This document shows, piece after piece, positions 54,298-57,463 of a DNA stretch of 64,000 nucleotides. Position 1 is the first letter of the stretch. Every line of letters begins with the position of its first letter. This DNA comes from Streptomyces griseus subsp. griseus (GTDB lineage Bacteria > Actinomycetota > Actinomycetes > Streptomycetales > Streptomycetaceae), in assembly GCF_003610995.1 (NCBI RefSeq), contig NZ_CP032543.1, positions 5,084,001 to 5,148,000 of the forward strand. The letters run 5' to 3'. The notes beneath the pieces were generated by a model that saw only the letters and a program-made list of their open reading frames with translations, was not told where the DNA came from and ran no database searches. The translations under genes were made by a program, and so were the position numbers.

Positions 54298-54744
54298 TCA
54301 GTCCGGCGGCGGTCCGCTGTCGATGCCGAGCAGCAGGGGGCCGGTGGGGGAGGCGACCAGGTCGGTGACGGTGATCGGGTCGAGTGAGGCGTAGAAGGCC
54401 TCCTGGGCCTTCCGCAGGGCGCCGCGCAGCCGGCAGCCGGAGCGCAGCGGGCAGGGTGTGGTGCCCTCGCACTCCACGACGTCGTCCGTGCCCTCCAGTT
54501 CGCGCACGAGAGCGCCGATCGAGGCGGAGTGCCCGGCTGAGGTGAGGGTGAGTCCGCCGCCCCGGCCGCGCCGGGCGTCCAGCAGGCCGAGATGCTGGAG
54601 GCGGGCCACGACCTTGGCGGTGTGCGTGTAGGGCACCCGCATGATGCCCGCGACCTCGCGCGTGGTGGGCGGGTCCGCACCTTCGGTGACCGCCAGCCGC
54701 ATGAGGACGCGGAGCGCCACGTCGGTGTACCGGGTTAGCCGCAT
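54298..54744 (-). CDS. nsrR: Rrf2-family NO sensor NsrR
   Basis: A 148-residue repressor with a winged helix (LTRYTDVALRVLMRLAV, then TTREVAGIMRVPYTHTAKVVARL) and the Fe-S ligands Cys92, Cys98 and Cys104 spaced C-x5-C-x5-C. Asp8 corresponds to the unusual fourth ligand region seen in the S. coelicolor protein. NO destroys the 4Fe-4S cluster and releases the DNA. It is upstream of hmpA on the same strand, and each gene has its own NsrR site. Confidence 0.93.
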   Translation of the reverse strand: MRLTRYTDVALRVLMRLAVTEGADPPTTREVAGIMRVPYTHTAKVVARLQHLGLLDARRGRGGGLTLTSAGHSASIGALVRELEGTDDVVECEGTTPCPLRSGCRLRGALRKAQEAFYASLDPITVTDLVASPTGPLLLGIDSGPPPD

Positions 54745-54759
54745 GGCCCCACCCTAGAT

Positions 54760-54782
54760 ACGTGGCATCTCAGATGCAACTT
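54760..54782. promoter_or_regulatory. NsrR binding site at nsrR
   Basis: GCATCT-C-AGATGC (54765-54777... centred on 54771) is a perfect inverted repeat inside an 11-1-11 motif, 16 bp before the nsrR start. It implies autoregulation, and it is the better of the two sites. Confidence 0.85.
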
Positions 54783-54920
54783 TCATGGTGCGCGGAGCGA
54801 CGGGGAGCGACCTGCCCCGCCCGAAGGCTGATTAGTCACACTCTTTTGTGTAATGGCGGACCGCGTCCCCCTGCTGAAAGGCTTCTCCCGCAGGTCAGCC
54901 CATGATCGAAAGGACGTCAG

Positions 54921-56327
54921 ATGTCCGTTGGTGAAGAGGTTCGCGACACGCAGGCGCCGCCGCAGCAGAGTCTGGGGACGGCAGCTGCGCGGAACCTCGC
55001 GACGACCACCAAATCCGCGCCGCAGATGCAGGAGATCACCTCACGGTGGCTGCTGAAGATGCTGCCGTGGGTGCAGGTACAGGGCGGTACGTACCGGGTG
55101 AACCGTCGGCTCAGCTATTCGGTCGGTGACGGCCGGGTGACGTTCGTCCAGACCGGGGACCGGGTGGCCGTGATCCCCGCCGAGCTGGGGGAGCTGCCCG
55201 CTCTGCGCAACTTCGGGGACGAGGAGGTCCTCACCGAGCTCGCCCGCAGGTGCGAGCAGCGGGATGTGGCCGCGGGGGAGGTGCTCGCCGCGCAGGGGGA
55301 CGCGGCGGACCGGGTCTTCCTGCTGGCCCACGGCAAGGTCGAGAAGATCGGCACCAGTCTCTACGGGGACGAGGCGGAGCTCGAAGTCCTCGCCGACGGC
55401 GCGTACTTCGGCGACCAGAGCCTCGTCGACGGCGACGCCGTCTGGGAGTACACGGCCCGGGCCGTGACCGCGTGCACGCTGCTGACGCTCAGCCGTGCGG
55501 ACGTGTTCAATCTGGCGGAGCGCGCGGAGCCGCTCCGCGCCCATCTCGCCGGTCTGCTCACGATCCCGCATCAGCGGACCAACAAGTACGGCGAGGCGGA
55601 GATCGACCTCTCCGCCGGCCATGTCGGCGAGGCCGTGGTCCCGCACACCTTCGTCGACTACGACGCCGCCCCCCGCGAGTACGAGCTGAGCGTCGCCCAG
55701 ACGGTGCTCAAGGTGCACAGCAGGGTCGCCGACCTCTACAACCAGCCGATGAACCAGACCGAGCAGCAGCTGCGGCTCACGGTCGAGGCGCTCCGCGAGC
55801 GCCAGGAGCACGAGCTGATCAACAACCGGGAGTTCGGCCTCCTCAACAACTGCGACTACGGCCAGCGGCTCCAGCCGCACGACGGGGCGCCCAGCCCCGA
55901 CGACATGGACGAGCTGCTCTCCCGCCGGCGCGGATCGAAGCTCTTCCTCGCCCACCCGCGCGCCATCGCCGCCTTCGGCCGCGAGTGCAACCGGCGCGGA
56001 CTGGTCCCGGAGAGCGTGGACATCGGCGGCCACCACGTGCCGGCCTGGCGCGGGGTGCCGATCTTCCCGTCCAACAAGATCCCGGTCACCGACGCCCGTA
56101 CGACCTCCATCATCTGCATGAGGACCGGCGAGGCCGAACAGGGCGTCATCGGCCTCCAGCAGACCGGCATCCCGGACGAGATCGAGCCGAGCCTCTCGGT
56201 CCGCTTCATGGGCATCGACGAGCAGGCGATCATCTCCTACCTGGTGACCGCGTACTACTCCGCCGCCATCCTGGTACCGGACGCCCTCGGCGTACTGGAG
56301 AACGTGGAGGTGAGCCGCTGGCGCTGA
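54921..56327 (+). CDS. Family 2B encapsulin nanocompartment shell protein (EshA-like)
   Basis: A 468-residue shell protein with an HK97 phage-capsid fold. Order: an N-arm (about 1-45), capsid segments with [16 protein letters not shown] and [15 protein letters not shown], an inserted cyclic-nucleotide-binding-like domain (about 95-215), then the rest of the capsid fold ([75 protein letters not shown] read in parts). The phosphate-binding cassette of the insert reads [16 protein letters not shown], lacking the classical Glu and Arg, so cAMP binding is doubtful. GAAAGGA precedes the ATG. The likely cargo gene follows. Confidence 0.9.
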
Positions 56328-56337
56328 CCCCGTGTCA

Positions 56338-56379
56338 CCCCCGGCGGCCCGGTCGGCCGACACCGGCCGGGCCGCCGGG
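56338..56379 (+). terminator. Hairpin between the encapsulin and polyprenyl synthase genes
   Basis: A 14-bp perfect stem (56338-56351 with 56366-56379) starts 10 bp after the shell gene stop. It probably reduces read-through, so that shell exceeds cargo. Confidence 0.75.
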
Positions 56380-56413
56380 GCCCCGCCCCATCGCACCGCC
56401 CCAGGGAGTGACC

Positions 56414-57463
56414 GTGACCATGACCAGTACGGACGCAGCGACGGAAGGGCACGAGGCCGCGGCGCTGCTGGAGCGCACCCGTGCCATCGTGGACCCGCAT
56501 CTGCGGTCGGCCGTGGAATCGCTGCCCGGTGGCATACGCCGGATCGCGATGTACCACTTCGGCTGGGAGAACGCCGACGGAACACCTGCCGCCGGACAGG
56601 CGGGCAAGGCCATCCGGCCGGCCCTCGTGCTGGCCGCCGCCCGGGCGCTCGGCGGCGATCCGGAGAGCGCCGTGCGCGCCGCCGTCGCCGTGGAGCTGGC
56701 GCACAACTTCACCCTCCTCCATGACGACGTCATCGACGAGGACACCACCCGCAGACACCGGCCCACCGCCTGGGCCGTCTTCGGCGTCCCGGACGCGATC
56801 ATCACCGGCGACGCCATGCTGGCCCTCGCCCAGCGGCTGCTCGCCGAGGACACCCACCCCGCGGCGCAACGGGCCGGTGCCCGCCTCTCCTCCTGCGTCA
56901 TCGAGTTGTGCGCGGGCCAGCAGGCCGACTGCGCCTTCGAGGAGCGCGGCCCGGACGAGGTCACGCTGGACGAGTGCCTGACGATGGCGACCGCCAAGAC
57001 CGGTGCCCTGCTCGGCTGCGCCTGCGCGCTCGGCGCCCTCTACGCCGGGGCGGAGGACCGCGCGGTCCGCGCCATGGACGGCTTCGGGCGCGAGGCCGGC
57101 CTCTCCTTCCAGCTCATCGACGACCTGATCGGCATCTGGGGCGACCCGGCCCGCACCGGCAAGCCCGTCGGCGCCGACCTCGCCGCCCACAAGAAGTCGC
57201 TGCCCGTGGTCGCGGCCCTGACCTCCGGCACACCGGCCGCCGCCGAGCTCGCCGCGCTCTACGGCGGCCCCATGGCCACCCCCGCGGAGGTGGACCGGGC
57301 GGCCGACGCCGTGGACCGGGCCGGCGGCCGGGACTGGGCCCAGGTCTGCGCGGCCGACCGGATGGCCCGGGCGGTCCACCACCTCTCCCGGGCGGTCCCC
57401 GACCCCAACGGAGCCGGTGACCTGCTGGCCCTGGCCGAATTCGTCACCCGTCGCACCAGCTGA
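56414..57463 (+). CDS. Polyprenyl diphosphate synthase, probable encapsulin cargo
   Basis: A 349-residue all-helical trans-prenyltransferase. The first Asp-rich motif is LLHDDVIDEDTTRRHRPT (Asp104, Asp105, Asp108) and the second QLIDDLIGIWGD (Asp236, Asp237), so it should condense isopentenyl units; chain length is not readable. A Lys in GKAIRPALVLA is the substrate contact. The N-terminal extension is short (about 20 residues, Thr/Ala/Glu-rich). GTG 56414 has AGGGAG 5 bp upstream; ATG 56420 is possible. Family 2B shells with such enzymes are known in actinobacteria, so encapsulation is likely. Confidence 0.88.
   Translation: MTMTSTDAATEGHEAAALLERTRAIVDPHLRSAVESLPGGIRRIAMYHFGWENADGTPAAGQAGKAIRPALVLAAARALGGDPESAVRAAVAVELAHNFTLLHDDVIDEDTTRRHRPTAWAVFGVPDAIITGDAMLALAQRLLAEDTHPAAQRAGARLSSCVIELCAGQQADCAFEERGPDEVTLDECLTMATAKTGALLGCACALGALYAGAEDRAVRAMDGFGREAGLSFQLIDDLIGIWGDPARTGKPVGADLAAHKKSLPVVAALTSGTPAAAELAALYGGPMATPAEVDRAADAVDRAGGRDWAQVCAADRMARAVHHLSRAVPDPNGAGDLLALAEFVTRRTS

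Follow-up and report, generated by a model that had tools for sequence, protein, structure and literature searches.

Which enzyme does a bacterial protein shell of viral descent enclose when the gene beside it encodes a prenyl synthase, a source of isoprenoid building blocks, and no terpene cyclase is adjacent? The question is raised by a two-gene locus of Streptomyces griseus subsp. griseus, located in a stretch of 64,000 nucleotides (contig NZ_CP032543.1, positions 5,084,001 to 5,148,000; hereafter the window, whose numbering is used unless genome positions are given). At this locus, a Family 2B encapsulin shell gene is followed by a gene for a short-chain trans-polyprenyl diphosphate synthase. 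The locus itself is ordinary for Streptomyces, and the point of interest is which enzyme sits inside the shell. Both proteins belong to the families named, their linkage is tight and conserved, the surrounding synteny is conserved, the genome has a single shell gene, and the synthase carries no long N-terminal extension. The locus is well conserved and represents an operon type already in the literature, in which a Family 2B shell gene is accompanied by one for a polyprenyl transferase (PT). With moderate confidence, the synthase is proposed to be made from the same transcript as the shell protein for use in or on the shell.

A Family 2B shell gene and its prenyl synthase

The features of the two genes, all on the forward strand, are as follows.
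54921..56327, +, Family 2B encapsulin shell protein, 468 aa (NF041163, 769.2 bits; PF19307 and PF00027; 9bhu, 678.7 bits)
54969..55013, +, N-terminal stretch of the shell protein, residues 17-31, conserved in Family 2B shells
55260..55523, +, cyclic nucleoside monophosphate (cNMP)-binding-like domain inserted in the shell protein, residues 114-201 (PF00027, E 8.1e-17)
55569..56315, +, HK97-like SrpI capsid domain, residues 217-465 (PF19307, E 5.7e-138)
56414..57463, +, short-chain trans-polyprenyl diphosphate synthase, 349 aa from GTG (NF041169, PF00348)
56723..56737, +, first Asp-rich motif, DDVID, canonical and uninterrupted, with Phe at -5
57119..57133, +, second Asp-rich motif, DDLIG, with Gly for the third Asp

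The shell protein exceeds the cut-off of the curated 2B model NF041163 (encap_f2b) by a wide margin (769.2 bits against 400), and scores 367.9 bits against the 2A model NF041162, below its cut-off of 380. The PF00027 domain precedes the capsid domain, which is matched by PF19307 at 458.5 bits (cut-off 22.8), so that the Family 2B shell with an embedded nucleotide-binding-like domain proposed by an earlier, sequence-only reading of this DNA is borne out. Among solved structures, the nearest relatives are 9bhu, 9bix, and 9bje, followed by SrpI-type shells; the best of them, 9bhu, is itself an S. griseus Family 2B encapsulin (PMC12407261). A Streptomyces cyaneofuscatus protein, 98% identical to the shell, bears the NCBI name 'family 2B encapsulin nanocompartment shell protein'. 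In the N-terminal stretch, the pattern [LM][GSAT]T[ASG]AA[RH] is found in 70 of 80 extracted shell rows.

Canonical cNMP domains have a motif with a phosphate-binding Arg, and in the shell protein this residue, judged by eye, appears to be replaced (WEYTA). According to PMC12407261, which refers to another paper on this point, cyclic nucleotides are not bound by the domain inserted in Family 2B shells. The same paper reports that the cNMP-like domains of the S. lydicus and related shells lie over the two-fold pores, and the two-component S. lydicus shell has the same architecture as that of the window; however, two shell genes are present there and one here, and the window lacks the xylulose kinase as neighbor of the shell gene. 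The first diagnostic site reads RRRG in the window protein, which by eye is closer to the self-assembling Enc2 (RRRK) than to Enc1 (TVWK) (PMC12407261). The shell protein would most likely self-assemble into a closed T=1 particle and, like the solved homologues, display its cNMP-like domains on the outside, above the two-fold pores.

Separately, the Rfam family RF02735 (Sernc350, a Saccharopolyspora antisense small RNA) matches 54954-55459 on the reverse strand, antisense to the shell gene, with 112.9 bits (gathering threshold 50). This match may simply reflect the conserved coding sequence of the shell gene.

The synthase gene starts either at GTG 56414, leaving the 86-bp gap reported previously, or at ATG 56420 (347 aa), and ends at 57463. 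Scanned from the ATG, the protein scores 499.7 bits against NF041169, the model for 'family 2 encapsulin nanocompartment cargo protein polyprenyl transferase' (cut-off 450), and the second-best model is the geranylgeranyl diphosphate (GGPP) synthase IdsB (377.7 bits, below its cut-off of 475). The presence of a trans-prenyl synthase directly after the shell is thereby confirmed. Of the two Asp-rich motifs that the sequence-only reading had credited to it, the first is canonical, while the second departs from the canonical form through its Gly. The genome encodes five PF00348 synthases, and DDxxG looks like a family trait, since three of the other four have it as well. In short-chain synthases, Phe at -5 combined with a DDxxD motif without an insertion goes with C15-C20 products. 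Judged from its sequence, the synthase belongs with the short-chain enzymes of the IdsB/GGPP-synthase kind, and its products are likely C15-C20 diphosphates, with GGPP as the most likely.

Conservation of the pair

The shell-synthase pair is widely conserved across Streptomyces. In an evenly sampled set of 199 genomes of the genus, a synthase match at E 1e-90 is present in 157. Among the matches listed, 139 of 150 synthase rows come directly after a listed shell gene and share its strand, at a gap of 14-662 bp (median 171). In the remaining 11 rows, either no shell is among the matches listed (ten rows) or the shell is on another contig (G111); in one of the ten, G198, the pair proved to be adjacent on inspection of the locus (L060). 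Upstream of the pair, antiporter and pyridoxal phosphate (PLP)-enzyme genes are found in 20/20 inspected loci, with NsrR-like and flavohemoprotein genes between them and the shell in 7/20. The pairing is beyond chance, being repeated throughout the genus and preceded by these two genes in every inspected locus.

PT-type Family 2B operons, described in PMC8346489 as almost exclusive to Actinobacteria, combine the same cNMP-inserted shell with an adjacent polyprenyl transferase, and both window proteins exceed the corresponding NCBIfam cut-offs. The eshA-mibA-mibB operon for 2-methylisoborneol (2-MIB) has a shell of the same family, but the neighbor in the window is a prenyl synthase. The window has no match to the terpene cyclase family PF19086, the only cyclase family searched, and no methyltransferase was found among the nine window proteins scanned (shell, synthase, GNAT, Rrf2, flavohemoprotein, PLP enzyme, DUF6304, antiporter, and DUF1648). 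In the genome, PF19086 is matched at 0.18, 0.96, and 5.35 Mb, compared with 5.084-5.148 Mb for the window, in agreement with the claim that no cyclase is adjacent. The absence of a cyclase is nevertheless ordinary: Family 2B operons containing a polyprenyl transferase number 900 and systems with both cyclase and transferase 165 (PMC8346489), so that for most systems of this type no cyclase was reported, and the pair is recurrent in Streptomyces.

Proposed use of the synthase in or on the shell

On the favored explanation, shell and synthase would be carried on one transcript, and the synthase, with its presumed C15-C20 product, would be enclosed in the shell. In the literature consulted, gene neighborhood is the sole basis on which PT-type Family 2B shells are given their cargo. 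Several points weigh against enclosure of the synthase. The case for it comes from gene linkage alone, and 42/199 genomes of the genus sample have no synthase match at the threshold used. Two other synthases of the genome (L004 and L005) score 412 and 382 bits against NF041169, near its cut-off of 450, and therefore the NF041169 score alone is no proof of cargo status. Furthermore, a disordered N-terminal domain of 50-100 residues is reported as a consistent feature of Family 2B PTs (PMC8346489), but the window synthase lacks it: about a dozen residues precede the first conserved helix, and 46 residues separate the GTG start from the HFGW block. Across the relatives (N-terminal regions were parsed in 59 of 60 fetched loci, L094 being unparsed), the region upstream of the first helix is highly variable, as if no strict tag were selected.

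Within this variation, the lineage of the window (e.g., L041, L042, L044, and L045) has a conserved GTG/ATG start and a short N-terminus of about a dozen residues, and many other synthases have longer Pro/Gly-rich N-terminal extensions. A longer window synthase reaching into the intergenic region was rejected, because relatives do not keep that frame; what they conserve is the GTG/ATG start near 56414-56420. A start resembling M[A/G]EFMTET occurs, by a loose pattern, in 27/59 parsed loci, among the synthases L048-L099. As a general PT targeting tag it was rejected, since it is absent from the lineage of the window and its codons are nearly invariant (the sixth is ACG in 24/27); nucleotide-level constraint or recent descent may lie behind this uniformity.

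An unlinked cyclase as possible cargo

A different candidate for the interior of the shell is encoded far from the window. Three PF19086 open reading frames (ORFs) are present in the genome, and one of them stands out.
175373-177583 of the genome, about 5 Mb from the shell gene, two-domain geosmin-synthase-like cyclase, 737 aa, with the C-terminus GPTGLGTSAAQ

The label 'geosmin-synthase-like' is drawn from the two domains and from the class description in PMC8346489, in which GPTGLGTSAAR is named as a possible targeting sequence of that cyclase class. The cyclase ends in a motif of this kind, with a degenerate copy between its domains, and the other two PF19086 ORFs lack the motif. Its score against NF041168, the NCBIfam model of the two-domain encapsulin-cargo terpene cyclase, is 1195.3 bits, just under the cut-off of 1200, which makes it a near-member unlinked to the shell. 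It is therefore possible, if rather unlikely, that the main cargo of the shell is this cyclase, loaded in trans by its GPTGLGTSAAQ tail, with the synthase feeding the cyclase or enclosed along with it. In that case, the compartment would serve geosmin-type terpene formation. Were this cyclase the true or an additional cargo, gene neighborhood would mislead on the role of these shells, and the formation of a widespread soil odor would be compartmentalized. The earlier proposal that the compartment makes a prenyl diphosphate only is accordingly not established, given a synthase without the reported N-terminal domain and an unlinked cyclase with a putative targeting motif; taken as a whole, the sequence-only interpretation is partly supported.

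Loading in trans draws on the single shell gene of the genome, on the restriction of the motif to one of the three PF19086 ORFs, on the near-threshold NF041168 score, and on the distribution of the two genes. In a class-level sample of 394 genomes, with the cyclase called at E 1e-100 (92 genomes) and a strong 2B shell match at E below 1e-130 (98 genomes; the model's own cut-off gives 108, so that up to ten genomes could change cells), shell and cyclase occur together in 89 genomes, the shell only in 9, the cyclase only in 3, and neither in 293. Outside Streptomyces the corresponding counts are 49/9/3/293. The Fisher p values are tiny, but they ignore descent, by which the co-occurrence is confounded. 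In the three cyclase-only genomes (G216, G292, and G479), the shell matches are weaker. The two genes are no more than 1.5 kb apart in 33/92 genomes, 32 of them outside Streptomyces. In the genus sample, the cyclase is found at E 1e-150 in 196/199 genomes; three genomes lack a strong shell match, and two of these (G007 and G049) lack the cyclase too. However, G101 has the cyclase with no strong shell match found in its fragmented assembly, and G098 has shell and synthase with no cyclase match.

As a separate observation, two Family 2B shell genes directly flank a geosmin-synthase-like gene in seven non-Streptomyces actinomycetes (G214, G251, G281, G331, G340, G349, and G487).

Other evidence goes against the cyclase. 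The NF041168 score remains below the curated cut-off, the inter-domain copy of the motif is degenerate, and the motif is no more than a putative tag in PMC8346489. The motif is also absent in 37/46 Streptomyces with a shell-synthase pair and a known cyclase C-terminus. Moreover, geosmin synthase uses farnesyl diphosphate as its substrate, and the window synthase may make C20. In the open-licence literature, as far as its text could be drawn on, no report was found of an unlinked geosmin synthase loading into a PT-type shell, which is weak evidence of novelty.

The tail motif of the cyclase

A more specific version of loading in trans assigns parts to both enzymes. In the lineage of the window, the sole shell would be filled by the geosmin-type cyclase encoded about 5 Mb away, whose C-terminal LGTSAA tail resembles the LGTAAAR in the N-terminal stretch of the shell and may dock at the same place as that stretch. 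Synthase and cyclase would form a prenyl-to-terpene compartment. The cyclase would have kept the tag in this lineage and lost it in a second one, in which N-terminal extensions, often with the M[A/G]EFMTET start, are found on many synthases. This version is unlikely.

Among the cyclases L101-L203, the motif is matched in 32/103 by a strict pattern and in 78/103 by a looser one (L154 being doubtful); by eye, 4 of the 25 misses (L164, L171, L180, and L198) have a variant, giving 82/103. By their C-termini, the geosmin-synthase-like enzymes of this set thus divide into those that end in a GLGTSAAR-like tail and those that do not (82 vs 21 of 103).

The exchange of a tag between cyclase and synthase was examined in 60 rows (59 loci and the window), for which the cyclase C-terminus is known in 46 (9 with the motif and 37 without) and unknown in 14. 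The length from synthase start to HFGW is 46-68 where the motif is present (start assigned in 6/9) and 46-250 where it is absent (28/37), with starts assigned by a heuristic and some of them doubtful (e.g., L046 and L081). In the synthase tree, all 37 motif-less rows fall in one clade of 46 rows, 9 of which have unknown status; the motif was thus probably lost only once, which leaves no independent repeats, and the tag swap was set aside on this ground.

Imitation of the shell N-terminus by the cyclase tail did not stand up either. The pattern LGT[SAT]AA[RQ] has 0 occurrences in 650,833 residues of six-frame ORFs from the window and 20 related loci, shell ORFs excluded, although these residues are not independent, as the loci are related and the ORFs overlap. 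A 14-column profile of cyclase tails fails to single out the shell stretch, which scores 2.4 against a best chance score of 12.5; the two share the core LGT[S/A]AAR alone, and the comparison is post hoc.

A possible regulatory role for the shell

Alternatively, the shell could act chiefly in development or regulation, as a multimer of the EshA/EshB kind, with the synthase only co-transcribed. The eshB gene (SCO5249) of S. coelicolor is developmentally regulated (PMC3878966), appears in a table of expression changes (PMC3610822), and is named as a possible new direct AtrA target (PMC13170358). By presumed orthology, eshB may correspond to the window shell gene. The linkage of shell and synthase, conserved with variable gaps across many genomes, argues against a regulatory multimer, as does the occurrence of eshA in an operon with 2-MIB genes in S. 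venezuelae (PMC6428758). A mainly regulatory shell is thus quite improbable.

Elements upstream of the shell gene

Two inverted repeats lie upstream of the pair, the first of which is the nearer to the shell gene.
54836..54853, +, inverted repeat TCACAC-N6-GTGTAA, 18 bp, beginning 85 bp upstream of the shell gene

This repeat is present in 29/50 loci rows (24/45 distinct genomes), mostly of the closest relatives, where it is found at a near-constant 84-94 bp upstream of the shell start. It is a possible operator.

The second is a perfect 13-bp palindrome, GCATCTCAGATGC, at 54765-54777. A role for it in control of the shell is unsupported, the pattern being present in 3/50 loci rows only. The palindrome is located just upstream of a divergent Rrf2/NsrR-like gene (54298-54744), after which comes a flavohemoprotein gene, and is possibly an NsrR-type site.
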